41,029 nt of DNA from a virus. Of the stretch, positions 178-36,018 are shown piece by piece. The stretch covers positions 1 through 41,029 of IMG/VR virus record IMGVR_UViG_3300032291_001563. One strand, 5' to 3'. Below the pieces are notes generated by a model. It did no database searches, had not been told where the DNA came from, and saw nothing but the letters and a program-made list of their open reading frames with translations. The first letter of the stretch is position 1. Each line of letters starts with the position of its first letter. The position numbers were made by a program, and so were the translations under genes.

Positions 178-2434
178 AGACAAACTAAAGATGACCTCTG
201 GGTCATTCGTGGATGGGAAGGAAGTACCTTCTCTAATCACGACTGACCCTAACGTCGTCACTCCGGGTAATATCCAGGGTATCAAGAAGGCTATCGAGAC
301 CGCCCGCAAGGAGATCCGTGGCCAGAAGACTGCAGCAGTTGCTGCTCCTGGTACCCCAATCAAGACAGAAGCCACACCAGCTGCTACGAAAGGCCGCAAG
401 GCACGCGCACTCCCCAGCGCTATTGCCAATGGTCGTACGAAGAAGGCTGGCTCAGGCCGCACCATCAATGACGCCCTCATCTCCGGCGGCAAGGTGCGTG
501 TCTCCAAGATTAATCCAAAGTTCGACCGACTGCAGGCCCTCACCGCCGAGCAGAAGAAGGGCATGTCACTGGAGCGCCAGCGCCTCAACCAGCTTGGCGA
601 GGTAGCTGAGGAGAACGAGGACTTCCTCCTGGCACTCGAGGCCATGAACCGCAAGCAGCTGGTAGAGCCGGAGCAGAACCGCATGCGTGCGATCTACCGA
701 CGCTACGACCACTACTTCCACCCTAACACCTTCACCCTTGGTGGTGCGGATCACTGGGCAGAGGACCCAAGCGCACGGCTCTCAGGCCGCTCGCACGTGT
801 CGGTCAACCTGCACGCTTCCTACGTCCAGATCCCAGCCTCACTGCAGGCTGTCACCCCTGTTATTAACTACGTCCCAACTGGCCCTACCGAAGGCGAGCG
901 AAACCAGGCTTCACGCAGAGAGCGTCTCATGTACGCTTGGTGGGATGCCAATGACATGGACCTCAAGCTCGAAGAGGCAGCTCTTCTCAAGGCCCTGTAC
1001 GGCAACACCGCTGCCAAGATCTTCTGGGATCCGATCAAGAAGATGCCACGCATCCAGATCGTCGACACCCCAGAAAACCTCTACGTTGGCTACGGCAGCT
1101 CTGACTACACCCGTGTAGATTGGGCTCTGTACAGCTACGGCCTGTCCCCACAGGCTGTGCTAGAGGAGTGGGGCGTTGACGTGATCCCGGTACGAGATGG
1201 CAACCAGTGGTTCCCATACACCTCGTCCAGCACGCATGACGACCCAATCGCCAGCATCTACCTGAACAGCTACCACCGCGATCCGATCCGCTACCAGACG
1301 GCGTACGACCAGATGAAGATCGAGATCATGGACTACTGGTACAAGCACCCTACTGCCCCAGGCAAGCCACCTCTCGTGTGCAACGCTATCATCGTCGGCA
1401 ACACCGTCGTGAAGCGCACTGAGCACCCTGAGCTTGAGGGGATCATCCCTTACATCATGCTCCGGAACAGCATGATCCCAGGCAGCCCATACGGCAAGCC
1501 TGAGCTGTACGACATCGAGCAGCTCCTCCGGGAGAAGGACGAGAAGATCACGGCGCAAGCCCAGATGATCCACTCCGTCGTTGGCGGTCAGATGTGGCAG
1601 CTCACTGGCGCTGAGGCTCCCGATGAGGTCCCGGCCAACGCCATCCCGAAGCCAAACCAGGTCGCTACCCCTGGGGCCGGGAACCGCATCGAATCCATCA
1701 ACCCATTCATTCCTCAGTTCCAAGTAGAGGATTACAACAAGCGTATCGACCGTGAACTTGCAGTCGCCTCTGGCTTGAACGATCTTCTACTTGGACTTGC
1801 TCCATCTAGCGTGCTTGGCTCGAGCCGTGCGATTGCGCAACTCATGGCCAACTACGAAGCTCGCATCTCCCCGAAGCGCAAGCTCCTTTACAGCTGGATC
1901 CAGCAGGTATGGGAAGTGTGCGCACGCGTGTGGGAGAACAAGGACAAGGCAGTTGCCAACGTCATCGATGGCGAATACTCCATCATGCTGACGCCACCAG
2001 AGCTCACACCACGAGACACCATCGAGCTTGCTCAGACTGCCATTAACCTGGTGCAGAACCGACTCTGGTCGGCAGAGCGTGCAATGGATCGCATGGGCGT
2101 AAGCGATCCAGAGGGCGAGAAGGACCTGATCCGCGACGAGCAGACAGACGCCACGCTCAACCCAGCTGCGGTACAGACGATGGGTGCGCTCATCCAGATG
2201 TTCTCGCAGATGCAGCAGCAGGCTCCTGAGGCAGCTCAGCAGCAGGCAGCAGCAGGGCAGGCAAGCGCCATGGAGGCCATGGCTAGCATGAACCCACCAC
2301 AGGGTGGCATGCCAATGCTCAACTCACCAACGGATGGCGCCGTGCCTCCGCAAGAAGCTCTCCCTCAGAACGCGCAAGAGGGCGGAGCAGACATAATGTC
2401 AATGCTTCAATCAATGCAGGGAGGTAATGAATAA
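170..2434 (+). CDS. Portal protein
   Basis: A 754-aa protein in the position expected for the portal, the dodecameric ring at the capsid vertex through which DNA is packaged and ejected. The middle and C-terminal parts look like large podovirus-type portals: a long alpha/beta body, then a helical stretch around GLNDLLLGLAPSSVLGSSRA and a Gln/Ala/Met-rich tail. The first 110 or so residues are a Lys/Ala-rich, low-complexity extension not typical of the family. An in-frame TTG at 155 would remove the Shine-Dalgarno site GGGGAG at 157-162, so ATG 170 is preferred. The gene overlaps the end of terL and is followed by a coupled ATAATG junction at 2431-2436. The assignment rests on position and general resemblance, not on a single catalytic motif. 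Confidence 0.85.
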   Translation: MPKDKLKMTSGSFVDGKEVPSLITTDPNVVTPGNIQGIKKAIETARKEIRGQKTAAVAAPGTPIKTEATPAATKGRKARALPSAIANGRTKKAGSGRTINDALISGGKVRVSKINPKFDRLQALTAEQKKGMSLERQRLNQLGEVAEENEDFLLALEAMNRKQLVEPEQNRMRAIYRRYDHYFHPNTFTLGGADHWAEDPSARLSGRSHVSVNLHASYVQIPASLQAVTPVINYVPTGPTEGERNQASRRERLMYAWWDANDMDLKLEEAALLKALYGNTAAKIFWDPIKKMPRIQIVDTPENLYVGYGSSDYTRVDWALYSYGLSPQAVLEEWGVDVIPVRDGNQWFPYTSSSTHDDPIASIYLNSYHRDPIRYQTAYDQMKIEIMDYWYKHPTAPGKPPLVCNAIIVGNTVVKRTEHPELEGIIPYIMLRNSMIPGSPYGKPELYDIEQLLREKDEKITAQAQMIHSVVGGQMWQLTGAEAPDEVPANAIPKPNQVATPGAGNRIESINPFIPQFQVEDYNKRIDRELAVASGLNDLLLGLAPSSVLGSSRAIAQLMANYEARISPKRKLLYSWIQQVWEVCARVWENKDKAVANVIDGEYSIMLTPPELTPRDTIELAQTAINLVQNRLWSAERAMDRMGVSDPEGEKDLIRDEQTDATLNPAAVQTMGALIQMFSQMQQQAPEAAQQQAAAGQASAMEAMASMNPPQGGMPMLNSPTDGAVPPQEALPQNAQEGGADIMSMLQSMQGGNE

Positions 2435-5232
2435 TGGCCCGACGTGGTAGCTTCGGCAGATCAGGCACAACGCAGAACCTTTCTGTACTCGTGTACCAGC
2501 TGGTCAAGGAGCAGATGAGCACTGAGCTCACGAACATCCTTAACGCTTACGAGAACAACATGAAGGACGGTAGATACACCACCCAGTTCAATGGTCAGAA
2601 CGTAGACGGCGAGTACGTCATGACGTACATGTCGCAGATGCTCCAGGGCTTCCCGCCTGGATCGACTGAGTACGAGACCCTCAACTCGCAGCTGGCAACA
2701 TTCCGTTCACGATACCAGCGCGATGTACAGAACCTTGTTATTGACTCGATGAACAATGGAACCCAGATTGACTTCGGCCTTCTCGGGCCGGCGTTCTCCA
2801 ATAAGGGGATCGCAGAGGTGGAACTCTCCGACGTCCGTAACTGGGCAGACGGAGAGATCGCTGCCTTGCTCGAGAATGGCGATAGCGCCCAGGCCGACAA
2901 GATTAAGGGCGCAGTCTTCGTTGCCGGGTTCAACGTTGAGAACGACGGCAAGGTTGCCGCCGTCAACAACGAGACCATGACCAGAGGACAATACAATAAC
3001 TGGCTAAAGGGCCAGCTTCAAGGCGCTCTCGACGCTGGCTACACAAAGGACAGCGAAGCGTACCGTGGCATCCTAAAGCTACAGGCTGAGGCTGCTAAGC
3101 AGGCTAAGTCTGAAGGCGAGGGAAAGGCAGCCGAGGCGGTCGTCAAGAAGTTCAACGCTATCAAGAGCGCACTAAACGACAAGGCCAGAGACATGCTCCA
3201 GGCATATGCTGATGCCAATGGCATCAACATGGCTGAGATCAACTCACTCATCGGCCAGGCTAAGGGCGACTTTGTTTACTACGAAACGATGCAGACCCTC
3301 GCTTCTGCTATCGGCAAGGGCGGCGAGTACGATGGATTCTACGGCGACGTAACAAGATTCGCTGGGGATCAGCTGCTCTCAGAGTTCAACGCTTTGGTTG
3401 TAGGCAGCCAATCGCAACTTATTGACCTTAGGGATAACGGCCTAGGCGGCCTGTCTGAAGAAGATAGACTTAAGATCAAGGGTGACCTCGATGGCGAGAT
3501 CGCCACAGGTAACGCATACGTTTCGCAAAGCGGCATCCCGTTCAGCTCTGGCGGAAGTGTAAGCGCCCTTGACTCACTGTACACCGGGCTAGGCGCTGCT
3601 GGCGTGTACTTCAGAAGCGACGGCTCAACCAAGATCGGAGAGGGCGGACATCCTGAGGCTGTATTCGCAGTCATGAAGGAGTTTGGTGACAAGCTCGGTG
3701 ACGTCGAAGGATACTCACTACTCAAGTCACTTGCCAAGGGCGATATCCCTGTCACGCTCATCGAGGGCTTTGGCAGCGAACTCATCCAAGACAACAACCC
3801 ACCTGACGGCGTGATCAGCTCGGCAGAATGGAAGACCGCCTTCGAGAACGGTCTATCACGAGACACGTTTGCTAGCATCGAGGAAGCAGCCGCGACGAAG
3901 GCTGCCACACTTGTAATGCCTTCGGTTGGCGGGTCTGCTACAATCTCACCAAAGAGCTTGGTAAAGATTGTGCTCGGCGCTCACATGAGCAGCTACATGC
4001 TGGCTAACGGCGGGCAGGTTGTCATCCGCCCAACCGGCACTGTGACGATCAGCGATGCATCCTCGCCAGCTGGCCCGCTTGCACGTCCTGCCCTCATCAA
4101 GGTAGGCGGCAAGACCTACGGCGGTATCAGCGAACCATTGACGATTAGCCAGGTAACTGAGGGATCGCAAGAGGCAACAGACTGGGCAGCAGCGAACACA
4201 AATATGCAGATTAACGTTTACAGGACTGGTGGCCCAGGGGACAAGAATGCTGGCATCTACGTCAGTATTGTCGGAGGGCTAGAAGGGCCTAATGGCAAGG
4301 CGCCGAACGGCATCATCATCCCTTACGACAAGTTCAAGCGCTGGATGCGTGACGTTGCTGGAGTCGACATCGATGACAGAACCTTCATGGTGCCAAACTC
4401 GCAAGAGCCTGCCATCATCAGGGTGTCCTCAACCGACCGTGCCACAGCAGAAGGCATTGACATCAACAAGGCTCTCGCTGGGATCACTAACCCAGACAGC
4501 GAATACTTCATTGGTAGGTCTACTACTGGCAAGGGAGCTGGCATTATGCAGCTCACAGAGACTGGGGTTACCAGCCTACAGGATCCTGGGTTTATTACTG
4601 ATCCAGCCAATGTCAAGGGCGCTATCGACGAGGCATTTAAGAATCCATCAGATATCTTGTCTAGGGCTACTGCGTACGCAGCCGCAAGAGGAGAGCAGGT
4701 AACTCAGAAGGACTTGATCAAGGCCGTCTACGCAAGCATCCCTGGCATCCCTACGACGTACAACATGGACCTCCAGGCTGAGCAGTTTGGTAAATACGGT
4801 GACGTTGGCGCAAGGATCACAGCGTTGTTCCCAAATATTAAGTCCGGGGCTCCAGTGATTCCGAAGGGTGAGGGTACTGTCCCTGGGACAACGTACCCAG
4901 CTCCGTCTATCCCACAAGACCCTGTGCCGACTTGGCGCCAGCCTCAGGTAACGCCAAACAATGGACGCGGGCCAGAGATCCCAAATAGCACAACGCCTGC
5001 TCCTGCAATCCCAACTCCAGCTGGAGGGTCTGGGAAGAAGGACGACGGCGGACCGTTTGGATTCCTTGGCGAAGTATTCCGGAACATCCCGAATATCTTT
5101 GGGGCTCCAAAGGTTGGCACTACAAAGCCAGCCGAAACGAAGCCTGTTACCGCCAAGCCGAAGGAGACCAAGCCGGTATCGTACTCGCTCACTCCTAGAA
5201 ATAGACCACCTGGAACTGGAGGCAATGTTTAA
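2434..5232 (+). CDS. Large structural protein, 932 aa, function unknown
   Basis: A 932-aa protein between portal and a second giant gene. It is mostly soluble and alpha-helical in the first 350 residues, then Gly/Ser-rich mixed sequence, and ends in a Pro/Thr/Lys-rich tail of roughly 120 residues (from about residue 810) with repeated TKP and PAP patterns. No catalytic motif was recognised. Its start overlaps the portal stop by one base (TAATG) and a GGGAGG site lies just upstream. Its place in the head region suggests a virion component, possibly an internal protein ejected with DNA or a protein lining the portal, but this is inferred from position and size. Its last codon overlaps the next ATG, so the three genes are probably translationally coupled. 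Confidence 0.8.
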   Translation: MARRGSFGRSGTTQNLSVLVYQLVKEQMSTELTNILNAYENNMKDGRYTTQFNGQNVDGEYVMTYMSQMLQGFPPGSTEYETLNSQLATFRSRYQRDVQNLVIDSMNNGTQIDFGLLGPAFSNKGIAEVELSDVRNWADGEIAALLENGDSAQADKIKGAVFVAGFNVENDGKVAAVNNETMTRGQYNNWLKGQLQGALDAGYTKDSEAYRGILKLQAEAAKQAKSEGEGKAAEAVVKKFNAIKSALNDKARDMLQAYADANGINMAEINSLIGQAKGDFVYYETMQTLASAIGKGGEYDGFYGDVTRFAGDQLLSEFNALVVGSQSQLIDLRDNGLGGLSEEDRLKIKGDLDGEIATGNAYVSQSGIPFSSGGSVSALDSLYTGLGAAGVYFRSDGSTKIGEGGHPEAVFAVMKEFGDKLGDVEGYSLLKSLAKGDIPVTLIEGFGSELIQDNNPPDGVISSAEWKTAFENGLSRDTFASIEEAAATKAATLVMPSVGGSATISPKSLVKIVLGAHMSSYMLANGGQVVIRPTGTVTISDASSPAGPLARPALIKVGGKTYGGISEPLTISQVTEGSQEATDWAAANTNMQINVYRTGGPGDKNAGIYVSIVGGLEGPNGKAPNGIIIPYDKFKRWMRDVAGVDIDDRTFMVPNSQEPAIIRVSSTDRATAEGIDINKALAGITNPDSEYFIGRSTTGKGAGIMQLTETGVTSLQDPGFITDPANVKGAIDEAFKNPSDILSRATAYAAARGEQVTQKDLIKAVYASIPGIPTTYNMDLQAEQFGKYGDVGARITALFPNIKSGAPVIPKGEGTVPGTTYPAPSIPQDPVPTWRQPQVTPNNGRGPEIPNSTTPAPAIPTPAGGSGKKDDGGPFGFLGEVFRNIPNIFGAPKVGTTKPAETKPVTAKPKETKPVSYSLTPRNRPPGTGGNV

Positions 5233-8200
5233 TGCCACTATACTACGACCAGCCACCACAGCGTCTACCTGGTAACGAAGTAAGTACCAGGGATCTTCGG
5301 ATCAATCTTGACATTGGTGGAGATCAGAAGGTAAAGGATCTGCGCCCAGACGAGCAGCTGTTTGCTGCAATGGGCGGCGCAGTAACTGACACCATCAAGA
5401 CTGGTATCTCTATCGGCAGCAAGATCCCGCTTCTTAGCGATGCGGTAAAGTTTGTAGCTGATAGCCCTGTCGGCTTTGTCGTGGGCAAGAGCCTAGAGGC
5501 CCTGCAGCTTTCGTCTAACATCGTAAGCACTGGCGGAGCGTTCCTGCGAAAGGCTCTGACACGCAAGGAAGATCTGCCAGCAGACATCCAGAGAATGATT
5601 AACTCTGGGGCTGACGAGATGGACGTACTCAACTACATGGTGAAGACACAACGAGCATGGAGCGACTCCCCTGAAGCCAACCTGGTATTCAGCCTCCTGA
5701 CAGATCCACTCACGTACACGCCTGCCGTACTTGGAAAGGTCGGTATGCTCAAGCCTGCAGTCGGCGTCGCTACCGGTGTTGCCGGCGGCGTGGCCGGTGG
5801 TGCAGCTGCTGGCGCAATGGGCCTTGGACCTATCGGCGCAGTCGGCGGCGGTATTATCGGTGGAGTTGTCGGCGCAAGAAAAGCTGGCCAGTTTGCTGGT
5901 CGTGCCCTTGAGCGTGCCGGAAAGCTAGAGCGAGTTGCTCAGCGAGCGAAGCTGGCTGGCAAAGAAGTCCTCGAATCCGACGTTGCCGCATTCGGCGGAG
6001 AACTTACTACCGCAGAGAAGCTTGCCATTGGACTAAACAAGCCAAGAGGCATGAACCTCAGCGAGAGACTTGCCATTGGTCGACAGGCTACACAGGCGAT
6101 TGCCAAGGCTGAGAAAATCCTAGAAGGAGCCAAGGACCCAGGCGTCATCCAGGCCCAGAAGAAAATCATCTCTAATGCGCAAGAGGCAATGAAGGACGCT
6201 AACGCCATTGACGAGGGGATCATCTACGGAACGTACAGCGCCCTTAAGGCTATGACTGAGACGGCAAGCGGCCCCATGAAGTACCTAGCTTCTGCCTTCA
6301 CTGTGCCTGCCCACATGCTTATGCAGAGAGAGTTGGGCGGCATTAGGCTGAACGAGCGTGTTGCCAAGTATGGCGCTGGCATCTTTGGCGACGGCGTGAC
6401 GTCGTCGTTCAACGAGCTGGTTGGAAGAGGCATTGCCAACTTCGGCATGATCGGCATGCAGAACGTCTTCCTTGGGAAGAACACATACAGAGCAACCAAC
6501 GTAGCTGAGCGCATTGCCAAGGCATACTTCGACGCGAAGCAAGACCTAAGAACCCTTAGCGGTGCCGGAGCAGAGGTAAGATTCACCCCACAAGAAGTCA
6601 TTGAGCAGATGCGAACGAACGTTTCCGCTGCTGCCGCCCAGGGCGGGGACACAGGTATCGTCGGCATGTTTGACGCCACCAACCTTGAAGAGCTCACAAA
6701 GCGCATCGAGTTCCTATCCAGCGTAGACCAGCAGGCTGCTGCACTGACGCCTGGACGCGGCACCATCCCACAGATTAAGGCTCTTGCCAACTACATCGAG
6801 AGCGAGATGAACATCGGAGACATCCAGGCTATCCGACGTGCCAACCCAGACGCACCAGCCGGGCAGGCGTTCGAGAAGACGTTTGTGTCCCAGATCAAGG
6901 AGTCTGGCGTTGAGGCATTCCACCAGGCTGGTGTTGATCAGATTAAGAATCAGATGGTCAAGCTCACGTTCGAGGTTCGCAACAAGCAGGTTGCCAGGAC
7001 CATGTTCGAGCAGCATGCCAAGTCGGCCACTATCGCCCTTGGGCAGAAGTGGGAGGAAGTTGCCGCTGCATGGCGCCGAACGTTCGAAGAGAGATTCGGT
7101 AAGTTCTACGATGAGCGTGGTCTTCCCAAGAGCGAGGCAGCCATTGACGAGGCAGCAGAAGAGATGCTGTTTGTGCAGTCCATCGGCTACTCTGGCGCAA
7201 GCGAAGTCACCGGCACTGTGAACAGACTCTTCGACAGAGTCCAGGCAGCCGACCCAACGCTGATCGCCGAGATCGGGCAGGAGTCATTCGAGCAGCTGCA
7301 GAACATCTTCTCAGAGATTGGCGGCAAGGTCAACGTCGTATCCAAGTATCACCTATTTAGCGACACAGCCACAGCCCTACGCCATGCCTACATGCTTGTG
7401 GAGAAGGCGACACCAGAAGCTACGTCGAGGTACGTAGACGATGAAGCCAGACTGGTAACGGTAAACATTGAAGACAACGTTAGCTCCAGCGTAGCTCGCA
7501 GAGCTGGATCGTACGGCGACGTAGCTACGATCAAGCGCCAGCTCCAGAAAATGGCCACCAATCCTAAGGCGCCAAGAGGATACGTCAAGATCCTCAACAA
7601 GCTTATTGATGGGATTGACAACACAAGCAACCTTGACGATGTGCGAGCCATGTGGGCTAAGACAGCGGCAGATGAGCTTGACGACGTCAGGGCTTTCGGT
7701 GGCACTAAGAACCATAAGGAGATCTACGAGTTCCTGCGCGAGGCTATCGACCAGGGGCTTACCTCAAAGAAGCTTTCAGATCGCCAGATCGCCAGGCTCT
7801 CGTCAGCTCTCCGCATCATTGGTTACGATGGAGACTTCATTGCAGGACTCAACAACGGTGCATACAGGGTTGCCCTTGCGCCAACCAACAACATGATCTA
7901 CAAGCCATCCTTCCTTGAGACGGCAACTGCCCAGGGCGGCAAGAGGGCTGGCATGTTCTCCAATAAGATCGTTCCGTTTATTGACAACACTAGCGAAAGC
8001 GTTATGAAGGTGTCGAAGCGGATGGTGCCAAATCCGGAGTACAAGTCTACGTTCCTACAGGAGTTTGGAACCAAGTGGTTTAGCGACATCCCACAGAAGT
8101 ACATCACCGCATCTATCAGACGGCGTATGGCTTCGTACCTAGCTCGCGGCGGCCTTGGCGAGGAGGCAGCAGATGCAGTGCTTGACGATCTTGTGCAGAG

Positions 8201-10343
8201 GGGTATCGCCAACGGCGTGTCCGCAAGAGGGCTTGAGACCACTGAGCACTACACAGCGTTTAAGAACGCTATTGATAGGGTCGGCGGTGTCGGCGCTTAC
8301 GAGAACTTTGTCCAGTCATACATGCGAAACACCGTTGATGGTGCGACTAAGTTCGATCCTACAAGAGCAGTAATGTACGCCTTCCGTGGCGACAAGAACG
8401 TCATCGGCGCTACCCAGTACGCTACAGGTGGCGCAAAGGTTTGGGCTCCGTGGATCGCAGGGTACACCGACAGAATCTATCCAACGCTTAAGTTCAAGAT
8501 GAACCCAATCTACTTTGTCCAAGAGTACCTTGAGAGCCCGACGTTAAACGCTGCTCGTGGTGTCGATGTCGATACCCTAGCCAGCATTAGCCGTGATGGC
8601 GCTATCTCCAACGTGAGCGCTGGCCAACTTAGAAACCTCAGTGACGTCGGTCCTGAAACTCAGAACTATCTGGACAACGTTAACTTCCTGGCTGTGTTCC
8701 GCAACGACGCTATTGCCCAGGCAACAACTGGCCGATACGATGATGTGGTTGCGGCCACTGGCCTGTGGCAGAACATCAAGACTGGTCGATCACTTAGCAA
8801 GCTTGCCCAGAATAAGGAGAAGTACAGAGACGCATTGGCGCTTGACCTAACGGCGAAGACGTTCTCTGAGACGCTAAGAAACAGAGACTTCAACACCTGG
8901 TCCGCCCTGTCCGCCCACTACGGCACGACCGACGCCCGCGCAATATTCACGAACTACGTGAACTATAGGCTGCGACTTGGCGACACGAAGCGTGTGCTCT
9001 CTGACATTGAAGCATCCAGGCCGGCAGGCGTTGGCTTCAACCGCATCCCTGACCCAGAGGGTAACGTCCGGTTTGCCGCTAAGGTAGAGCTAATCACTGG
9101 CAACAGCAGACTCCCTGAGGAGTTGGCTGGGCAGTTTGGTGGCAAGAACCTTGGGCCAGAGGAACTCCTCGAGTACTACACCCAGAACCCACACATCTGG
9201 AGAGCAGAGCTGGACAAGCACATGATCTCCCTGCAGGACGCTGGCTACGACATGACTGAGATCCTCCCTGTGGCTGAGACCCTTCGCAAGAGGATCATTA
9301 GACTAGAGGATGCCATGAGGGAGCAGGCCTACGTTCCAGAAGATATGCGTGGCTTCCTCTCCACCGCCGGTCTTGCTGAAGCATCAGACAAGCTGGGCGA
9401 GGTGCTCAATAGACTTGACATCCAGAGCATCGAGCTGATCCACAAGCAGTCTGCTCTCAGGACCCTGGCCAGCGCCTCTGGCATGATCAACCCTGAAGCG
9501 ATGACTGACCTTGGCGACATGGTTGTGCAGACCCTGCTAGTTGGTAAGGGCTTCTCGACTGAGGCGCAGAATGTTATCGACGCCGTGAATAGATCCATTG
9601 ACGCTGCCAAGAACGGTGGCGCAAACATGTTCACGGAAGGGCGGGCGTTCTCTGAGGCCGTGAGCAACGCCATGCGCGCAGAGATCGCAGCTGACCCAAG
9701 CCTGATTAGGGTGTTCCAGGAGAACAGCCTGGAGATCATCTCCAACCGCAGCGCAGAAGAGACCGTGTACAATGCGTTCCAGTACGCGTACACCAAGGCT
9801 CTCGAGCAGGCGAACAAGACGACCTACTACGCATCGCAGCGCTCGTTCTTCGAGCGTACGATTAACCACCCAATGCTTGGTTTCTATCCGTACAGCTACA
9901 TGTTCAAGAAGATCCTGCCAGAGTTCTACCAGCTGCTCTTCAAGGGCGGCTTTGGTGTCAAGGCCCCAGGCGCTGGATACTCTGCATACATGAATGTTCG
10001 TGACTATGTGGAGGCCCAGCTCGAAGAGGACCCATCGTTCCGCCGTGCGCTCGAGGCTAAGCCTGAGATGATGTACATGGCAACGATGCTTTTCCCAGGC
10101 GTGCCGTGGGATCTGTCAGTTGTGCCGCCGGTATGGGCGAGAAACATCTACAAGCGCCTTGCTACGGATAAGGACATCACCCTTACCAACATCCTCGTTG
10201 ACGACACACTTAGCAGATTCTCTGACTTTGGCCCATTCACAACAGTGCCTCTTGCACTAGAAGGTATTGGGCAAGCATTTGAAGATAATAGCCCGAAGCC
10301 TATCAGACGGGTTCCGTCTGCATTCCCTTCGAGCTTGGATTAA
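5232..10343 (+). CDS. Giant internal/ejection-type virion protein, 1703 aa
   Basis: A 1703-aa protein between the portal-linked 932-aa gene and scaffold. A striking Gly/Ala/Val-rich hydrophobic segment at about residues 175-215 (many GG and GxxxG pairs) could insert in a membrane. The rest is long, charged and helical, ending with an aromatic-rich segment around GFYPYSYMFKKILPEFYQLL. It is too long to be a scaffold or protease and lacks recognisable enzyme motifs. Giant proteins with glycine-zipper segments in the head module are typical of internal virion proteins that short-tailed phages eject to build a DNA channel. That role is inferred. A tape-measure role is possible but the position, upstream of the capsid gene, argues against it. 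Start ATG overlaps the previous stop and follows GGAGG. Confidence 0.8.
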   Translation: MPLYYDQPPQRLPGNEVSTRDLRINLDIGGDQKVKDLRPDEQLFAAMGGAVTDTIKTGISIGSKIPLLSDAVKFVADSPVGFVVGKSLEALQLSSNIVSTGGAFLRKALTRKEDLPADIQRMINSGADEMDVLNYMVKTQRAWSDSPEANLVFSLLTDPLTYTPAVLGKVGMLKPAVGVATGVAGGVAGGAAAGAMGLGPIGAVGGGIIGGVVGARKAGQFAGRALERAGKLERVAQRAKLAGKEVLESDVAAFGGELTTAEKLAIGLNKPRGMNLSERLAIGRQATQAIAKAEKILEGAKDPGVIQAQKKIISNAQEAMKDANAIDEGIIYGTYSALKAMTETASGPMKYLASAFTVPAHMLMQRELGGIRLNERVAKYGAGIFGDGVTSSFNELVGRGIANFGMIGMQNVFLGKNTYRATNVAERIAKAYFDAKQDLRTLSGAGAEVRFTPQEVIEQMRTNVSAAAAQGGDTGIVGMFDATNLEELTKRIEFLSSVDQQAAALTPGRGTIPQIKALANYIESEMNIGDIQAIRRANPDAPAGQAFEKTFVSQIKESGVEAFHQAGVDQIKNQMVKLTFEVRNKQVARTMFEQHAKSATIALGQKWEEVAAAWRRTFEERFGKFYDERGLPKSEAAIDEAAEEMLFVQSIGYSGASEVTGTVNRLFDRVQAADPTLIAEIGQESFEQLQNIFSEIGGKVNVVSKYHLFSDTATALRHAYMLVEKATPEATSRYVDDEARLVTVNIEDNVSSSVARRAGSYGDVATIKRQLQKMATNPKAPRGYVKILNKLIDGIDNTSNLDDVRAMWAKTAADELDDVRAFGGTKNHKEIYEFLREAIDQGLTSKKLSDRQIARLSSALRIIGYDGDFIAGLNNGAYRVALAPTNNMIYKPSFLETATAQGGKRAGMFSNKIVPFIDNTSESVMKVSKRMVPNPEYKSTFLQEFGTKWFSDIPQKYITASIRRRMASYLARGGLGEEAADAVLDDLVQRGIANGVSARGLETTEHYTAFKNAIDRVGGVGAYENFVQSYMRNTVDGATKFDPTRAVMYAFRGDKNVIGATQYATGGAKVWAPWIAGYTDRIYPTLKFKMNPIYFVQEYLESPTLNAARGVDVDTLASISRDGAISNVSAGQLRNLSDVGPETQNYLDNVNFLAVFRNDAIAQATTGRYDDVVAATGLWQNIKTGRSLSKLAQNKEKYRDALALDLTAKTFSETLRNRDFNTWSALSAHYGTTDARAIFTNYVNYRLRLGDTKRVLSDIEASRPAGVGFNRIPDPEGNVRFAAKVELITGNSRLPEELAGQFGGKNLGPEELLEYYTQNPHIWRAELDKHMISLQDAGYDMTEILPVAETLRKRIIRLEDAMREQAYVPEDMRGFLSTAGLAEASDKLGEVLNRLDIQSIELIHKQSALRTLASASGMINPEAMTDLGDMVVQTLLVGKGFSTEAQNVIDAVNRSIDAAKNGGANMFTEGRAFSEAVSNAMRAEIAADPSLIRVFQENSLEIISNRSAEETVYNAFQYAYTKALEQANKTTYYASQRSFFERTINHPMLGFYPYSYMFKKILPEFYQLLFKGGFGVKAPGAGYSAYMNVRDYVEAQLEEDPSFRRALEAKPEMMYMATMLFPGVPWDLSVVPPVWARNIYKRLATDKDITLTNILVDDTLSRFSDFGPFTTVPLALEGIGQAFEDNSPKPIRRVPSAFPSSLD

Positions 10344-28174: not shown

Positions 28175-28492
28175 TTACTTGGTCTCTGCCTGCACCTCCA
28201 CTACGCGTGGCTTCGTCCAGCGTCCGTCGCTCATCCGCTCGCTTGTGGCGAATACGGTGACTGTCGTCCACTGTGCCGCTGCGAGTGCTGCCGCTGCATC
28301 ACCGCGTGCGATGACTGGGTAGAAGTGCACCTTGCCCTCGTCGTTGACCTCTTCGATCACAACCTGAGCATAGGTTACATTCCCACCCTTGTCGTAGGTG
28401 ATGTCCGCTGTGTCCAGTGCGCCAGTGCGTGGCGCTGCGCTGGGGTGATCGTGCTCGCCCTGCACGATGCCCGTGATCTTGGTTAGAGCCAT
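28175..28492 (-). CDS. 105-aa protein, possible OB-fold, unknown
   Basis: A 105-aa protein, the sole gene of leftward unit 1 and the one closest to the divergent control region. It opens with TKITGIVQGEHDHP and ends with TTVTVFATSERMSDGRWTKPRVVEVQAE-like strands (key parts VTVFATSERM and RVVEVQAE), a layout that would suit a small OB-fold single-strand-binding protein. This is only a fold-level impression. It starts at ATG 28492 after AAGGAGGAG, and its own terminator suggests separate, perhaps strong, expression. Confidence 0.65.
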   Translation of the reverse strand: MALTKITGIVQGEHDHPSAAPRTGALDTADITYDKGGNVTYAQVVIEEVNDEGKVHFYPVIARGDAAAALAAAQWTTVTVFATSERMSDGRWTKPRVVEVQAETK

Positions 28493-28531
28493 TGGCTCCT
28501 CCTTCCCGCGACGCTTGACGCCGCGATCTTC

Positions 28532-28553
28532 GGGGGGCAGTACATCCGCCCCC
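28532..28553 (-). repeat. Leader hairpin, copy C
   Basis: On the leftward strand, GGGGGCGG pairs with CTGCCCCC (one G-U) around ATGTA, about 40 bases before the ATG of the 105-aa gene. Its 3' arm and distance to the start codon match copies A and B. Confidence 0.7.
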
Positions 28554-28619
28554 TCAACAAGGCGAGCCCCGTTCTCCCCCCCGTGCCGCCAGCGTATACT
28601 GTGTTACGCTGCTCGCTTC

Positions 28620-28681
28620 GGGGGGCAGACCCGCAGACTGCCCGATTTTGGGACGGGGGTCCCACTCGGGCTTTTCTGCGG
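28620..28681. repeat. Leader hairpin copy D and nested inverted repeat
   Basis: GGGCAG/CTGCCC (28623-28628 and 28638-28643) is the fourth copy of the leader hairpin. The same bases also take part in a larger nested fold: CCGCAGA/TCTGCGG (28631-28637, 28675-28681), GCCCGA/TCGGGC (28640-28645, 28666-28671) and GGGAC/GTCCC (28650-28654, 28659-28663). The two folds exclude each other. Confidence 0.65.
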
Positions 28682-28760
28682 TATAGCCCGTTTGGTGGGG
28701 TTACCCAACCTCCGGACTGGACATACCCATCTGATAAGAAACCTTAATGTTGGTAAACCC

Positions 28761-28790
28761 TTGACACGATTGGATATAAATAGAGGGTGA
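28761..28790 (+). promoter_or_regulatory. Late promoter-like motif, copy 1
   Basis: TTGACA, four bases, then TGGATATAAATAGAGGGTG. A near-identical element lies at 36410 before the tail fibre gene. TATAAA lies only about eight bases from TTGACA, so it is not a standard sigma70 arrangement. It lies upstream of the giant late gene. Confidence 0.6.
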
Positions 28791-28852
28791 TAGATATACC
28801 CTCTAATACGGTTTTACGGGTTATAAATAGAAAGTTATACCCTCTTAGAGGG
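28781..28852 (+). promoter_or_regulatory. Paired inverted repeats, operator candidate
   Basis: TAGAGGGT (28781-28788) pairs with ACCCTCTA (28798-28805), and CCCTCT-T-AGAGGG (28840-28852) is a second inverted repeat built from the same half-site. ATAAATAG occurs twice, at 28776 and 28823. The layout suggests two binding sites for a regulator flanking the late start region. Confidence 0.5.
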
Positions 28853-28869
28853 TGCACCAGAAAGGCAAC

Positions 28870-31800
28870 ATGGCAAAGATTCCAGATCCAAAGGAGATCC
28901 AGGCCCAGATCGACCGCCTCGTCAACAGAACCGTTGACCAGCAGGTGGAAGGTAAGGCTGCTCCGGCTGCGCCCAAAGCAGGTGCGGCCAAGGATCCGTT
29001 TGCCGGAATGAAGAAAGAGACCCCTAGGGCAGAGGCCCCAACACCTACACCCCCAGCTGCTGCCGCCCCCTCCGCTCCGGCAGCTGGGGGTACTTCTGCT
29101 CCAGCCGCCCCATCCAAGCCAGCGCCGTACCAGACCTACATCGAGTACGAGTACGTAGGCGAACCAGACCCAGACTCCATCGGCTCCCTGCCGTCGGAGG
29201 AGATGAACTACACCGCTGGAGAAAGAACAGCAAGTGGCAAGCTTGCCATTGCGCCAGCCGTCAGGGGCGACAAGCGCTCCAACATTGAGAAGGTCATCGC
29301 TGGTGAGCGCACCTCAACCAGCCGCCAGTACGCACCCAAGAAGGGCGTAGTCCCTGGAGCCAATCTTCTCCTTACCGTCCGCGGCAAGCCAGCTGCGGTC
29401 GTCCGCATCACCGCTGTCTACAAGATCATGGGCTCGACCCAGGATGGGTTCGCCGTCCTCCAGGATCTCGCCACTGGCACAGAGGTCAAGAAGCCGATTG
29501 AGCGCCTGGCTGCCTCAGAGGGCTACGACGCAGCCGAATACGCCAAGACAATCTACAACACCAAGATCACCCCTGGCCAGGCAATCGCCGCGGAATACGA
29601 TGCAGACCTCAACGCCAAAACCCAGGCTGACATCGCTGCCGCCCAGGGCGCTCCAGCCGAAGCCCCAGTTAGCCGAGCAACAAGCATCGGTATGGCACCG
29701 GGGGATGTTCCGGTACCACCTATGGGGGAAACTACGCCCTCCGTGGCTCCTACAGGCCTCCCAGAGGCTCCTATGCCCCCGGTTGAGACCCCCGAAACGC
29801 AAGTAACGGCGACGACCCCCACAGATGCCACCGTAGCTCAGGGGACAGAGCAGGGGACTTCTAAGCCTTTGGCCGCAGGTTCGAATCCTGCCGGTGGCGC
29901 CAGCAGCGCGTTCGAGTCCATGACGGCGACACCAGAACAAATCAAAGCAACGGCGGCGCCCGCTGACGGTGACTTTGGTATCGAGGGCGAGACCCAGCCG
30001 TATACATTGCCAGAAACTGACGGCAGATACGTGGGCATCATTGGCACGGCAGGGCGACGAGAAGATGGGGCACGACTGACAGAGGGCGACTACCGATACC
30101 TTGTCAAGTACATCGGCGGGGCGGTCAAGCCAAACGACGTCCTAATCTCCGGCGGCGCAGCGTGGGCTGACCACGTAGCTGTCCAGCTGTTCCTTGACGG
30201 CAAGGTAGGTGGCCTTGTGCTGCACCTTCCGGCAGAGCTGATCGTCGGGCCAGACGGGAAGCTGTCGTTCAGGAACGGTGGCTTTGGTACTGCAGGCAAC
30301 ACCGCTAACTACTACCACTCACTGTTCGACAAGGCCCTTAAGGTAGAGTCCGGATCTTCGCTAAAGCAGATCCAGGAGGCCATTGACCGTGGCGCTGTCG
30401 TCACATTTGGCGATGGCACACAGGGCAATGAGGGGATGAAAGCACGCAACAGCCTCGTTGCACGCGACGCACGCGACTTCCTGGTAGCCATGACGTTTGA
30501 TCCGAACATGAAGAACCAGACCCCGAAGGACGGCGGAACAGCAGACACCTGGCGCAAGCACCGTAAGGGGCACCCAGAAGCCAAGCGTAGACTGGTAGAC
30601 ATCCGCGCTCAGAATCCAGACCCATCAGAAGGCGAGCGGCTACGAGCATTCCGCTCAAAGAAGGGCCAGTATGCGCTAAGCCAAGTAGAAACTGAGCAGA
30701 CTGCGGACATGCTGAACGCGATGGCCCAGGCTGAGGGAGAGAAGGGATCGCTTCTAGACAAGGCGTCTAAGAATATTAGGGATCTTGCTATGACGGAGAG
30801 CACAGCGCAGGGGTACAACCTGCAGCAGGCGCTGCGGGCGATGCAGGCTGAGGAGGCGAAGGTCCTTACCAGAGCTGGTAGGATCGCATTCCTGCCTACC
30901 GATAAGCTTGTTTCAGCTGCCCTGGTGATTGCTATGCTTGATGCCCAGGCACCTGTGAGCGAAGAGATCTACACCATGATCGACGAAGGGTTCCTACCGA
31001 ACGTCGGCATGCTAAAAAGAGCGCAAGGGCGCGAAATCGACGTGCAGGCTGCCATCCGATTCATGCGCGACCGCATCTTGACCAAGACAATCGAGCTTGG
31101 TAAGGGCGAAAATGACGTCCTCATCACCAGAATCCTAGAGAACGCTGGCGTTCCACAGAGCGCATTCGCCAAGACTGGCGCAGATGCACCAGCATACACG
31201 TACCCAGGGGCCGATGCGCAGGCAGCAGAAGTCAAAATCAAGCGCGTGAACAACGACCTGAAGCGCGTACTTGCCAGAATCCAGAAGAACGCCGCAGATC
31301 TTGGTCCGCTGATGAGCCATCCAGAGGTGGCAAAGCGCTTGTACCTAGTTACCAACTTGCTTGCCGGGATCGAGCAGGACATCGACTCAGAGTTTGCTGG
31401 AGAGGCTCTGCCATCCAGGCTCAGAACTGACAAATACTCCGGACTTCCGTACCTTCGCGCACTCGAGCAGATCGATCCGATCTTCGAGTACATCCGAATG
31501 CGTGCCGACATCGACCCTGCGCAGGTCCTCCCAGAGGATCCAGGCGACAGAGACCCATACAAGATCTCCGAAGCGGTACTTGCTGCTGGTGCGCAGCCAC
31601 CACAGTCACGTGGCAAGCGAGGCAGATACGTTTACGACGAGGCACAGCTGCACGCCACCTACAAGGCTGGCACTCCGTACCGCCGATACGCGTTTGACAT
31701 CAACGGAGAGGTCCACCCACAGTACATGACGCTCGACGAACTCGGCTTGGTGACCGACAAGTTCGACGGATTTGAGAATCCATACGCCGGACTTGCCTCA

Positions 31801-34800
31801 GTCAACGAGGGAGAGACAGGCAGGACAAATACAAGCAGAGCTACAATCGGTATGCACATCAGCACCGACTCAAGCGCACGCGTAGAGTGGGTATCTCGCA
31901 TCCCGAAGAAGGAAGTTGAGGTACTGCGGGCTATCAAGAAGCTCCTTGCTGACAAGCATCCGTCATATATCACCCCTGGTACCCCAGACGAGATCGCAAT
32001 CGTGCCTGGTGCGTTCACTAAGTACACCAGAGATGCGTCACTTGTGGACGGTATTGCAGATGCCATCTACAACGACGTATCAAATGCCATGGGCAAGGTC
32101 TACCTTGTGGACGTTACTGGCAGCAGACAGAGCCAGGTCACCATTGATGGCCTCACGTACTACATCGGCAAGGGCATGTACGCATTCAAGGCTGGCGACG
32201 AGACCGGTCTTAAGCTCGCACAAGAGGTATCGGCGCTCGAAGACGACGCTGGCCCAAGCTCACGCGTCAGCAAGCCATTCAAGCTAGGCGATAGGGCCGA
32301 ATACCCAGCGATTACTGGCGAACTTAAGTACTTCAGGATTGATGTTGACCCTGTTGTCCACATGACCTTCGCACATAACGACAAGACGCTGCTCAGTCAG
32401 AGAGATGCAGCCCGATTCGGTGAGCCATTTGACCCAGATCAGCAGATTACCACCCCACTTAAGCCAGCAAAGGGTGGCAAGTTCCAGGGTATGTACCTGC
32501 TCAGCTCTGAATACACTCGAGAGCCAGGGTTTACCTACAAGATGGTTGAGGAGCCGTACAACCTTGAGCTAAAGAACGAAGACGGAACACCAATGCTCAA
32601 CGCTGAGACAGGCAAGCCTGTCACAGTGCGGATGTTTAGGACTGTTGCGGTTGGTGAGCGAGTAAGCATGGCGCCTGGTGTCGAAGACTTCGCAGACTAC
32701 ACAGATAATAGCCCAACCAATATCGAGTTTGACGAAGGTCTCCGGTTTGTTATTGGCAATGATATTCAGCTAGGTAGAACCCTGGATGGCGTCGACCTCA
32801 TTGAGGACAACTACAACGATGTTGTGGCTATGGAGATCCGCCAACAGCAGCCTGTGTTCCTCCAGGGCGCAGAGCGCCGTGCACGAGACCGCCAAGAGCG
32901 CATTGAGCAGGGTCTTGACCCAGTCGACGAGACGATGTCGGAGTCTGATAAGGCATACAGAAACTTCACCGAAGCTGGCGAGAGAGTCGACCACTTCGGC
33001 AGAGAGTACTCGTTTGCAGACCACGGTGAGTACGACACCGATTCTCCGTTTGCTGCCTCAGTCGCTGAGACCAGAACCAAGGAGCGGATGCAGGCACTTG
33101 CACCAGGGGCCGGTGGTGAGGCGCCAGCTGAAGCTGACGTAAAGGCTCTGCCCCAGTTCACCATGGAAGACTTCATGAGGCCGGAGGGCCTCACCCCAGA
33201 GAGCCAGAGGGCTCTTGACCAGCTCGTCGCAGATTACTTCTACATCCTACGCGTACGAGCCCGTGACGTTTCCCAGATGGTTCCGAACCCTAACTTCGTT
33301 GAGCGAGAAGGCCAGATTGGGTGGCGTGCACTTAGAGGGGTCGTAAAGCTTAGAGGCGAGATGCTCAGGGATCTTGGCTACAGAAGGGCTCTTGCTCTAC
33401 ACAGGTACCAGACCCGTGAGCCAGCCATCCTAAACGCTGTACTATTCGACATCTTTGCGGCGACCGGAGACAAGCTTGACGTGGCAAATGAACTCACCAA
33501 GCAGGTCTATACGGATATCGAGGTAGAAGATAACTTTGTCTCTACCCGAAAGGGTAAGCCGTCCTTTAGGGATACGCCTATTGTTGACGATGCTGACGCC
33601 CTGGCACGGGAGTTTGCTTTTAGCGTGGCACGCCGAATGCTCAGGGAGCGGACCCCTAATGTCTACTCAACCAGCACAGAGATGATGGCTGAAAGCGAAA
33701 CTTCCTCAGAAGAACGTGCCGCTGAGGCGGAGAGATCCGGAGGGTCTGCTGAGGCTGTTACCGACTACAAGAGCGAGCTAGCACAGATCGCTGCACAAAC
33801 CAATATGGCTGAAGGCCAGACCACCCCGTACACCGGCGTGGAGATTGGCGAAAGCCTGCAGCACACTCTTGAGGATGGTAGAACTATTTCCGCGTCGTCC
33901 CCTGATGGCAAGGAGTGGGTCCAGGCGATCATGGAGCGAGAGCGACAAGGGAAGATCCCTGAGAAGGTTCTCACCAACATGATTAACGCGCTTGAGACGG
34001 CAGAAGAGGAAGCTGCTATTAAGGCTCTTCGTAGCAGGATTAAGGGCAAGGAGGCTCCAGCACCACAACCTATCGAGGCTCCAGTAGCCAAGAGACCTGC
34101 CCCACGAGTTAATCGCGTACTTGATCCTATGAGCGTCGACGAGCGCAGGGCATTTGCAAACAGAGCGTGGGCACTTTACTCTGAGCACGTTGCAGCGGAT
34201 GGCGACGGAGACGCGTTCGTGAAGACGATCAACCGGGCACTTTCTGCCGCTACGACGGTAAAGGGCAAGGAGAACAGGTTCAACCAGATCCTTAACTTCG
34301 TATTCGACAACAACGGCACAGTCATGGTCCCAGACGTTTACTTCACCGACGTCAATGGGAACAAGACGTACCCAGAACCTAAGGTAAAGAATCCACAGTA
34401 CAACTCATCTGCCAGAAGAGGGAGCGCGTTTGATGCCACCTTCACCGTCGAGGAGATGGAGAAGTTTGTGACGGAAATGTCGACCATGAGAACCAGCAAG
34501 CTGGCTGGTGGGCTGAGGGAAATCATCCGATACGCCAAGGCACAGAATAAGTCCGCAGGCAAGAAGAAGCAGCTCCGGTTCTACCTAACCATGGACCCCA
34601 AGACCGGCATGCCGAAGTTCTCCCTGTCGGTATCCCCAACTTACCCAAGCCAGAAGTCCGTATCCACACCGTACGCCCCAGGTGGCGTTGACAGGGAAGG
34701 CAAGGTCAAGGCTGGTGGGGAGGCCTTTGACGACCCATTTGCCACCATGCAGGGCGATGCCAACAGACTCCAGTCCCTGACTGCCGATGACATTGAGGCA

Positions 34801-36018
34801 GTTATCCGCAGCGCTGGTGCTGACTCGGCAATCAAGGTAGTCCGCAGGGAATCTGAGATCCTTAGCCAAGCTGAGGGCGTAGCTAGCGCAGAGGACTTCG
34901 CCAGAGCCCAGCCGTACGACCTTGTGTTCACCGAAGGCTTTGACGCTGACGAAATCTCTGGAAGCCTGTTTGACGAACTCCCAGACCATGTCAAGGGCGA
35001 CGACAGATCTAAGGTTATGAAGATCATCCTTGATGCCGCAGTGCGAGCTAGGTTCTTCCAGATTATGAAGACAGATCTCGACCAGCAGGGCATTGACAGC
35101 AGCTTCATCACTGAAGATGACCTTGACCCAAGCGCGTTCAAGAAGGTAGAGACCCCTGAGGGTTCGAAGTATGCGCTGAAGCCACGCCTTGAGCAGGATG
35201 GCACGTTCGCCGGTCCGTTCTCGAGGCGAGGCAAGGGACCAGTAAGAACGCTCAAGCTTCTTGACATCGAAGGCGACGACAGGACTTCTCGAGCACTTAA
35301 GGCCGTGCTTGAGCGAATCAAGCAGGGCGGAACGTACGCTGAGCAGCTAGACATGGACGAGGCCGCACGACAAGCCGCTAACGTCCTGGATTTCCGAAAC
35401 AAGGCCCTTGGCCTTGAGAGGGACTCTGCACGTCCATCAAGCCCAGAACCGATCGACATGGTGTCGAATAACGTTCTCGGCCCATCAAGCAAGCTCCCAA
35501 GGTTCTCCCCTGGCGCAAAGGCTGGTATTGCTGGCGGTACGATTGCCGGCACTCTTGCAGCGTACCTGCAGTTCGGCGCTGACGAGCAGGCTAAGGAGAT
35601 TGCCCTTGCCTCACTACCAAGCCAGGTTGCATTCGAAGCTCTTGGCGCAGTGCCTAAGGTCGGCGGTCCTGTGGCAGCTGCTACGGGCCTGGGTTTGACA
35701 TACGCGACTGGCGGGGACATGCTTAGAGCGCTCGCTGGTATCACTGGCTCCGTGGTCGGCGGTATCGCAGGTACGGGTGCCGGTCTCTTCACTGGACCTG
35801 GTGCGTTCGTAAGCGGCCTTGCAGGCAGCACGGCTGGGTACATGATTGCAGACAACCTGTACTCAGCGGTCACTGGCAAGTCGCCAGCCAGCCAGGTACC
35901 AAACAACGTTGCAAGATCTAACTCGCTCATGGAGCAGAGAACGAGAACCCCGGGTGTGAGGGACGTCATGCCAGTAGTTAATAGGGATATAGCTGAGCTA
36001 GAAAGGATGGGCGGATAA
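28870..36018 (+). CDS. Giant 2382-aa protein with SLOG-like domain
   Basis: The largest gene. ATG 28870 follows AAAGG; an upstream GTG at 28852 lacks a site. Residues about 25-85 and 280-375 are Pro/Ala/Thr-rich linkers. Residues about 385-580 form a SLOG (DprA/YpsA/DUF2493-type) Rossmann-like domain: GIIGTAGR, VLISGGAAWADHVAVQLF, VVTFGDGTQGNEGMKARNSLV and a GGTADTWRK segment, features that bind nucleotide ligands. The long middle is charged and of unknown fold. Gly-rich hydrophobic segments lie at about 2215-2230 and 2260-2335. Position, size and glycine-zipper spans suggest an ejected virion protein, and the mixed domains recall phage polyvalent proteins. A complete tRNA lies within the second linker. 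The last base of its stop region overlaps the next ATG. Confidence 0.82.
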   Translation: MAKIPDPKEIQAQIDRLVNRTVDQQVEGKAAPAAPKAGAAKDPFAGMKKETPRAEAPTPTPPAAAAPSAPAAGGTSAPAAPSKPAPYQTYIEYEYVGEPDPDSIGSLPSEEMNYTAGERTASGKLAIAPAVRGDKRSNIEKVIAGERTSTSRQYAPKKGVVPGANLLLTVRGKPAAVVRITAVYKIMGSTQDGFAVLQDLATGTEVKKPIERLAASEGYDAAEYAKTIYNTKITPGQAIAAEYDADLNAKTQADIAAAQGAPAEAPVSRATSIGMAPGDVPVPPMGETTPSVAPTGLPEAPMPPVETPETQVTATTPTDATVAQGTEQGTSKPLAAGSNPAGGASSAFESMTATPEQIKATAAPADGDFGIEGETQPYTLPETDGRYVGIIGTAGRREDGARLTEGDYRYLVKYIGGAVKPNDVLISGGAAWADHVAVQLFLDGKVGGLVLHLPAELIVGPDGKLSFRNGGFGTAGNTANYYHSLFDKALKVESGSSLKQIQEAIDRGAVVTFGDGTQGNEGMKARNSLVARDARDFLVAMTFDPNMKNQTPKDGGTADTWRKHRKGHPEAKRRLVDIRAQNPDPSEGERLRAFRSKKGQYALSQVETEQTADMLNAMAQAEGEKGSLLDKASKNIRDLAMTESTAQGYNLQQALRAMQAEEAKVLTRAGRIAFLPTDKLVSAALVIAMLDAQAPVSEEIYTMIDEGFLPNVGMLKRAQGREIDVQAAIRFMRDRILTKTIELGKGENDVLITRILENAGVPQSAFAKTGADAPAYTYPGADAQAAEVKIKRVNNDLKRVLARIQKNAADLGPLMSHPEVAKRLYLVTNLLAGIEQDIDSEFAGEALPSRLRTDKYSGLPYLRALEQIDPIFEYIRMRADIDPAQVLPEDPGDRDPYKISEAVLAAGAQPPQSRGKRGRYVYDEAQLHATYKAGTPYRRYAFDINGEVHPQYMTLDELGLVTDKFDGFENPYAGLASVNEGETGRTNTSRATIGMHISTDSSARVEWVSRIPKKEVEVLRAIKKLLADKHPSYITPGTPDEIAIVPGAFTKYTRDASLVDGIADAIYNDVSNAMGKVYLVDVTGSRQSQVTIDGLTYYIGKGMYAFKAGDETGLKLAQEVSALEDDAGPSSRVSKPFKLGDRAEYPAITGELKYFRIDVDPVVHMTFAHNDKTLLSQRDAARFGEPFDPDQQITTPLKPAKGGKFQGMYLLSSEYTREPGFTYKMVEEPYNLELKNEDGTPMLNAETGKPVTVRMFRTVAVGERVSMAPGVEDFADYTDNSPTNIEFDEGLRFVIGNDIQLGRTLDGVDLIEDNYNDVVAMEIRQQQPVFLQGAERRARDRQERIEQGLDPVDETMSESDKAYRNFTEAGERVDHFGREYSFADHGEYDTDSPFAASVAETRTKERMQALAPGAGGEAPAEADVKALPQFTMEDFMRPEGLTPESQRALDQLVADYFYILRVRARDVSQMVPNPNFVEREGQIGWRALRGVVKLRGEMLRDLGYRRALALHRYQTREPAILNAVLFDIFAATGDKLDVANELTKQVYTDIEVEDNFVSTRKGKPSFRDTPIVDDADALAREFAFSVARRMLRERTPNVYSTSTEMMAESETSSEERAAEAERSGGSAEAVTDYKSELAQIAAQTNMAEGQTTPYTGVEIGESLQHTLEDGRTISASSPDGKEWVQAIMERERQGKIPEKVLTNMINALETAEEEAAIKALRSRIKGKEAPAPQPIEAPVAKRPAPRVNRVLDPMSVDERRAFANRAWALYSEHVAADGDGDAFVKTINRALSAATTVKGKENRFNQILNFVFDNNGTVMVPDVYFTDVNGNKTYPEPKVKNPQYNSSARRGSAFDATFTVEEMEKFVTEMSTMRTSKLAGGLREIIRYAKAQNKSAGKKKQLRFYLTMDPKTGMPKFSLSVSPTYPSQKSVSTPYAPGGVDREGKVKAGGEAFDDPFATMQGDANRLQSLTADDIEAVIRSAGADSAIKVVRRESEILSQAEGVASAEDFARAQPYDLVFTEGFDADEISGSLFDELPDHVKGDDRSKVMKIILDAAVRARFFQIMKTDLDQQGIDSSFITEDDLDPSAFKKVETPEGSKYALKPRLEQDGTFAGPFSRRGKGPVRTLKLLDIEGDDRTSRALKAVLERIKQGGTYAEQLDMDEAARQAANVLDFRNKALGLERDSARPSSPEPIDMVSNNVLGPSSKLPRFSPGAKAGIAGGTIAGTLAAYLQFGADEQAKEIALASLPSQVAFEALGAVPKVGGPVAAATGLGLTYATGGDMLRALAGITGSVVGGIAGTGAGLFTGPGAFVSGLAGSTAGYMIADNLYSAVTGKSPASQVPNNVARSNSLMEQRTRTPGVRDVMPVVNRDIAELERMGG
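29827..29902 (+). tRNA. tRNA-Arg (UCU) inside the giant gene
   Basis: A 76-base cloverleaf: acceptor stem GCCACCG/CGGTGGC with all seven pairs, TA, D stem GCTC/GAGC with an 8-base loop, A26, anticodon loop CTTCTAA with TCT at 29860-29862, 5-base variable loop, T stem GCAGG/CCTGC with loop TTCGAAT, discriminator G and encoded CCA. A20, C35 and U36 fit arginine identity. The anticodon stem GGGGA/GCCTT is weak (two G-U, one A-G mismatch). It is in sense orientation in a Pro/Thr-rich linker and has no stop in the host frame. AGA arginine codons are common in the late genes, so the tRNA would help translate them. Confidence 0.85.

Follow-up and report, generated by a model that had tools for sequence, protein, structure and literature searches.

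In mitochondria, tRNAs that lie between genes punctuate long messages, from which the mature tRNAs are excised. Phage tRNA genes that match the codon use of the phage have been surveyed (PMC6409571) and studied computationally (PMC13015707), and they are described as free-standing or clustered. tRNA sequence is also found in phage DNA, in an actinobacterial setting, at attP sites that overlap tRNAs and in tRNA-dependent lysogeny, where the integrase acts on the 3' portion of a tRNA or on a short core, and the phage may or may not encode a tRNA of its own (PMC10865867). The nearest precedent that we found is a putative, clade-conserved tRNA-Pro nested in the octocoral mitochondrial mutS gene, for which we found no codon-use test (PMC11353228). 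In the open-access papers that we searched, no gene of a phage or bacterium was described with a tRNA nested in sense, and earlier reports may exist.

The tRNA-Arg(UCU) described here resembles the codon-matching phage tRNAs in being intact and in having its cognate codon enriched in phage genes, but it lies in frame inside a protein gene, and the enrichment concerns giant genes, not the terminase gene. As in octocoral mutS, a tRNA-like gene lies within a protein-coding region and is conserved in its clade; here, however, it is a bacterial-type tRNA of a phage and comes with codon evidence. Unlike at the attP sites, the tRNA is present as a whole, inside a giant gene, and no integrase turned up among the ORFs searched. 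A long message would give rise to the mature tRNA, as in mitochondrial punctuation, except that here excision would split a single reading frame. From the comparisons set out below, we consider it likely that these 76 bases are a working tRNA-Arg(UCU) gene as well as an in-frame linker of the giant protein, the tRNA most likely being cut from the giant mRNA.

The stretch of DNA analyzed, hereafter the window, is a virus record of 41,029 bases. Its terminase frame runs off the right end and its portal gene starts at base 155; since the two genes are adjacent in relatives, the record probably represents an almost complete genome in circular permutation. No terminase relative was detected among 50,697 records of isolated phages, and the phage is a member of an uncultured group. 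The frame of the giant gene is open for 2,388 codons, or 2,382 counted from the ATG at codon 7 (Table 1). Pfam and NCBIfam gave no conserved domain above cutoff in the giant protein, and no bacterial genome was found to encode its N-terminal region. Among isolated phages, only Erwinia phage UCB24 matched it (40% over 179 residues); this match covers the first domain past the linker, which by eye appears SLOG-like. The hydrophobic region at the C terminus is conserved in both lineages of phages that carry the tRNA. This region, the size of the protein and the place of its gene near tail genes suggest that it is probably virion-associated or injected. Just 3' of the giant gene, a 131-codon gene (36018-36413) encodes a VAHELLH motif and is zinc-peptidase-like, with no match in Pfam or NCBIfam.

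Table 1. Coordinates of the features discussed, in window positions.
Feature	Coordinates	Strand	Remarks
Giant gene 1	2434..5232	+	AGA-rich, 0.33 of Arg codons
Giant gene 2	5232..10343	+	AGA-rich, 0.30 of Arg codons
Giant protein gene (2388 codons)	28852..36018	+	likely ATG start 28870
Ordered N-terminal domain 5' of linker	29134..29646	+	residues 95-265, pLDDT mostly 70-94
Pro/Thr-rich linker holding the tRNA, coil-like, low confidence	29650..29931	+	residues 267-360
Hinge aacggcgacgaccccc, common to the window and tRNA-less L222	29805..29820	+	homology ends 6 bases before the tRNA
tRNA-Arg(UCU), complete, CCA encoded	29827..29902	+	codons 326-350 plus one base of the giant gene
First domain past linker	30016..30552	+	residues 389-567

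An earlier note on this DNA had proposed that a complete tRNA-Arg(UCU) is nested in sense inside the giant gene, and this was confirmed. ARAGORN called a tRNA-Arg with anticodon TCT at exactly the interval given in Table 1, on the plus strand, and Rfam model RF00005 scored 62.9 bits against a cutoff of 29 bits (E = 1.8e-11); both methods found a single tRNA in the window. The tRNA begins at codon 326, after 325 codons of the giant gene, and sits within one continuous frame that is open throughout and has conserved protein on both sides, while the remaining two frames are closed by stops within the tRNA. Pairing is perfect in the acceptor stem (7 pairs), the D stem and the T stem, and the CCA is encoded. 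A20, C35 and U36 are the established identity bases of arginine tRNAs; all three are present, together with the mature CCA end (D-loop numbering by inspection).

An open frame across such a tRNA is not rare: of 119 bacterial tRNA-Arg(UCU) genes, 92 have at least one frame without a stop. It is the depth of the tRNA within the frame that sets this case apart: a search with one pattern gave 31 other viral tRNA-Arg(UCU) genes, and in none of them do at least 100 open codons lie on each side. Two bacterial tRNAs in long open frames (L064 and L069) were considered as parallels and rejected, since in both the tRNA is at the upstream end and precedes the recognizable protein. The nesting exceeds chance, because the tRNA occupies the same kind of place in nine of nine tRNA-bearing contigs and in every homolog of its own lineage that covers the place.

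These nine phage contigs are separate records from two lineages, and all carry the tRNA in frame 0. A search of IMG/VR with the giant protein returned nine loci, six of which cover the place of the tRNA, and all six (L001, L002, L003, L005, L006 and L008) have it in the same frame. The second lineage, L012 and L016, was found by searches with the tRNA pattern. The giant proteins of L012 and L016 match at 76% overall, and those of the window and L012 align only over 26 residues, in the tRNA-encoded stretch, and over 85 residues near the C terminus. Terminase identity between the two lineages is about 70%, which makes them distant kin. Nevertheless, the window and L012 share 77 of 77 bases at the tRNA, with flanks that do not align. 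The nested tRNA is the sole tRNA in every carrier record.

Across the carriers, the tRNA is identical at 75-76 of 76 bases. Among codons that specify the same amino acid in the window and in L005, 0 of 24 differ within the tRNA versus 727 of 1,510 in the rest of the gene (P about 1e-7; 1e-6 with the local rate). Likewise, L012 and L016 differ at 0 of 24 such codons in the tRNA versus 468 of 1,427 elsewhere (P = 7e-5; 3e-6 with the local rate), so that same-amino-acid codons outside the tRNA differ at 33-48%. The only substitutions in the carrier set are C to A in L005 and C to T in L016. Both fall at D-loop position 20a, which varies freely in tRNAs, and both alter the residue (Thr to Lys and Thr to Ile, respectively). 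Changes at 20a only, together with zero silent ones, indicate that the protein tolerates change where the tRNA does and that the tRNA forbids silent change to which the protein would be indifferent. Hence, conservation of the tRNA at the nucleotide level exceeds what the protein needs. A tRNA passed between phages only recently could look equally conserved, but such a transfer would not by itself put both changes at 20a. The comparison of related phages that the earlier note had suggested, asking whether the tRNA is kept while the linker varies, came out in favor of the tRNA.

The same data bear on whether a host-like tRNA fragment was acquired recently and passively and has been retained only through the accident of an open frame. 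Such tRNAs often lack stops in frame 0, and the linker tolerates inserts, but passive acquisition fits poorly with the near-identity of the tRNA beside diverged codons, its presence in two lineages and the linked use of AGA described below. Moreover, the closest bacterial gene is 92% identical, and its 6 differences mean that none of the host genes examined was freshly copied; we judge passive acquisition to be extremely improbable. That closest gene, from an Acidimicrobiia MAG, was rejected as the source of a host tRNA copy, and a class-wide search of 395 genomes gave no tRNA gene closer than it. The T arm and the 3' acceptor strand resemble actinobacterial genes (best 92% over 76 bases). As a whole, the tRNA is similar to tRNAs from Acidimicrobiia and from other Actinobacteria or Chloroflexi, a likeness that may be a weak hint to the host.

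A terminase-based search gave 80 loci, from which 50 whole records, many of them fragments, were scanned for tRNAs. The nested tRNA-Arg was absent from all 50 scanned records, and a single one has a tRNA, which is of Ile type with no ORF of 150 codons over it. Several tRNA-less relatives encode giant proteins homologous to those of the carriers at about 27-33%. At the linker where the window has the tRNA, L222 has plain sequence, and L219 and L226 have a different domain. Since the same protein occurs in relatives without the tRNA, the 25 tRNA-encoded residues constitute a dispensable linker. In AlphaFold predictions on eight relatives, residues from about 95 to 265 formed an ordered domain, and the tRNA-encoded residues lay in a coil-like stretch of low confidence after it; what comes C-terminal to this coil is likewise of low confidence, probably owing to a shallow alignment. 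The coil and the tRNA-less relatives agree with the earlier proposal that the tRNA lies in a linker that tolerates inserts. In a terminase tree, the carriers fall in two groups with non-carriers within and between them, which requires at least three gains or losses, counting L143, whose giant gene was not covered. L145, with a terminase 97% identical, has no tRNA in the part of the giant gene that is covered, and its AGA share is 0.12.

Homology between carriers breaks at the borders of the tRNA. L012 and L016 are 84% identical from 2 bases 5' of the tRNA onward and unrelated upstream of it, except for a common 50-base linker. L001 and the window diverge along a stretch of about 80 bases that stops about 5 bases short of the tRNA, and in L005 the CCA is directly followed by about 770 additional in-frame bases. 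These breaks place the tRNA at a junction used for exchange. The 50-base linker (L012, about 2375-2424; AEVTPENTKNLPDGVT) is 96% identical in DNA between L012 and L016 and, being common to N-terminal regions that are unrelated apart from it, is perhaps a second recombination hinge. The N-terminal domain of the giant protein of L016 (12816-13622, minus strand) is a cpYpsA SLOG domain (Pfam PF12694, E = 5e-14), and L012 has an unrelated domain at the same place. The insert of L005 (5690-6493) encodes a domain of about 260 residues with no Pfam or NCBIfam match.

The tRNA sequence could thus be kept as a DNA hinge or attachment-like site for swapping domains of the giant protein, making a tRNA product unnecessary. 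The breaks at the tRNA borders are what such a hinge would leave, as are the other domains found at the same linker in tRNA-less relatives. An exchange junction may explain how the tRNA arrived, but it leaves the AGA result unexplained: a hinge gives no reason to expect three separate genes to be enriched in AGA. In addition, changes at 20a alone are the signature of a tRNA and not of a DNA hinge, and no integrase match was found among the ORFs tested. We therefore regard a hinge without a tRNA product as unlikely; a DNA hinge and tRNA function are compatible, and both can be true. An attachment site (attP) was rejected on the same lack of an integrase among the ORFs searched, which left out some short ORFs.

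The strongest evidence that the tRNA probably works is the enrichment of AGA that accompanies its presence. We compared the giant genes of 8 carriers and 11 non-carriers across 59 degenerate codons. AGA represented 0.21-0.34 of the Arg codons in carriers versus 0.03-0.19 in non-carriers, and was used about two and a half times as often with the tRNA as in tRNA-less relatives. It ranked first of the 59 codons (p = 2.7e-5, uncorrected for kinship) and was the only one to separate the two sets completely, and among effects that agree between the two lineages its own was the largest (log odds +1.04 and +1.35). CGA was lower in carriers and GC3 was similar to that of non-carriers, so the rise in AGA is not a drift toward A. 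In giant genes 1 and 2, which were outside the first test, the AGA share was 0.34 in carriers versus 0.11 in non-carriers, again with complete separation; cysteine codons outranked AGA there, only owing to near-zero counts. The terminase gene showed no AGA difference (0.11-0.14 in carriers versus 0.03-0.17 in non-carriers). The cognate codon of the tRNA is thus enriched in carriers relative to non-carrier kin, as for a codon-compensating tRNA. Within the window, the AGA share was 0.25-0.33 in the three giant genes but 0 in the capsid gene, 0.05 in the portal gene and 0.11 in the terminase gene, so that the earlier statement that AGA is common in the late genes holds for the giant genes and fails for the other three.

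At matched Arg positions, AGA gains predominated over losses in L012 and L016 compared to L224 (14:0 and 16:2, respectively) and in L005 (12:2 and 12:3), whereas the ratios for the window itself were not significant (8:2, p = 0.11; 9:4, p = 0.27). The AGA comparison amounts to about two independent contrasts, since the carriers within one lineage are close kin. A change of host could also shift codon use, and causation could run either way, as AGA-rich phages may be those that keep the tRNA. Within the giant gene, AGA was rarer 5' of the tRNA than 3' of it (11/81 versus 164/554, p = 0.002) in the window, L005, L012 and L016, a contrast that rests on few upstream Arg codons and toward which three of four non-carriers lean likewise.

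No promoter-like site was detected on either strand at 28400-30500 with an E. coli-type consensus, which may not fit the host. As no recognizable promoter lies beside it, the tRNA is most likely cut from giant transcripts. Host RNase P would cut its 5' end out of part of the giant-gene transcripts, the usual 3' nucleases would form its 3' end, and the released tRNA would be charged with arginine and serve in translation of the AGA-rich giant mRNAs. Every tRNA cut out would cost one copy of the giant mRNA, of which a stop-less piece of 325 codons would remain; we infer such excision, and with it the trade-off with protein synthesis that the earlier note had anticipated. The tRNA was probably acquired at the linker, a hotspot of domain exchange, and passed between the two phage lineages.

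The base at -1 is T in all carriers despite different codons (GAT, CGT and AGT), and T at -1 fits the preference of RNase P. However, -1 is mostly C in related bacterial genes (C in 68 and T in 28 of 119), which makes this T weak as evidence. It would equally suit a tRNA-shaped processing or regulatory element whose cleavage sets the amount of giant protein, the freed tRNA not decoding, as would the sense orientation within the message and the lack of a recognizable promoter nearby. Yet such an element would need neither conservation of the anticodon loop nor enrichment of AGA, and the T at -1, atypical of the related bacterial genes, is a weak point; we hold this explanation to be very unlikely. 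With respect to a decoding tRNA cut from the message, in silico folding was also examined. The tRNA folds well alone and, in L012 and L016, within the message. With 40-base flanks, however, the acceptor stem was not favored in most of the window lineage (p 0.00-0.05), which speaks against a working tRNA, whereas p was 0.54-0.82 in L005 and L001. As 38% of free-standing control tRNAs misfold likewise with 40-base flanks, folding in context is uninformative.

The anticodon stem, with G27.U43, G28.U42 and A31.G39, is indeed the weakest part of the tRNA, as first noticed, and its weakness counts against a working tRNA. The accompanying idea that it shows a compromise between coding and folding did not hold. 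Silent changes of CCT to CCC and TTG to CTG would turn both G.U pairs into G-C, and no carrier has such a repair at G28.U42 or G27.U43. A mismatch at 31-39 is usual in free-standing genes of the related bacterial type, being C.T in 85 of 119 bacterial tRNA-Arg(UCU) genes (retrieved with a pattern that leaves these positions free). A forced coding compromise was rejected on the available synonymous repairs and the normal 31-39 mismatch, and the stem is weak for another reason.

Together, these results make it very probable that one stretch of DNA both encodes protein and gives a working tRNA. As far as the open-access papers searched go, no phage or bacterium had so far provided a well-supported example of the two on the same strand, and this one would be the first. 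Standard annotation, by tRNA masking or by ORF-only calling, misses one of the two genes. The conflict between two products of one transcript becomes directly testable. It is possible, if doubtful, that the arrangement forms a self-coupled circuit, in which the tRNA for the AGA-rich genes would be freed only by cutting the giant mRNA and its supply would be tied to output; if so, every tRNA would cost one message. Finally, the finding connects a tRNA with domain exchange in giant phage proteins.
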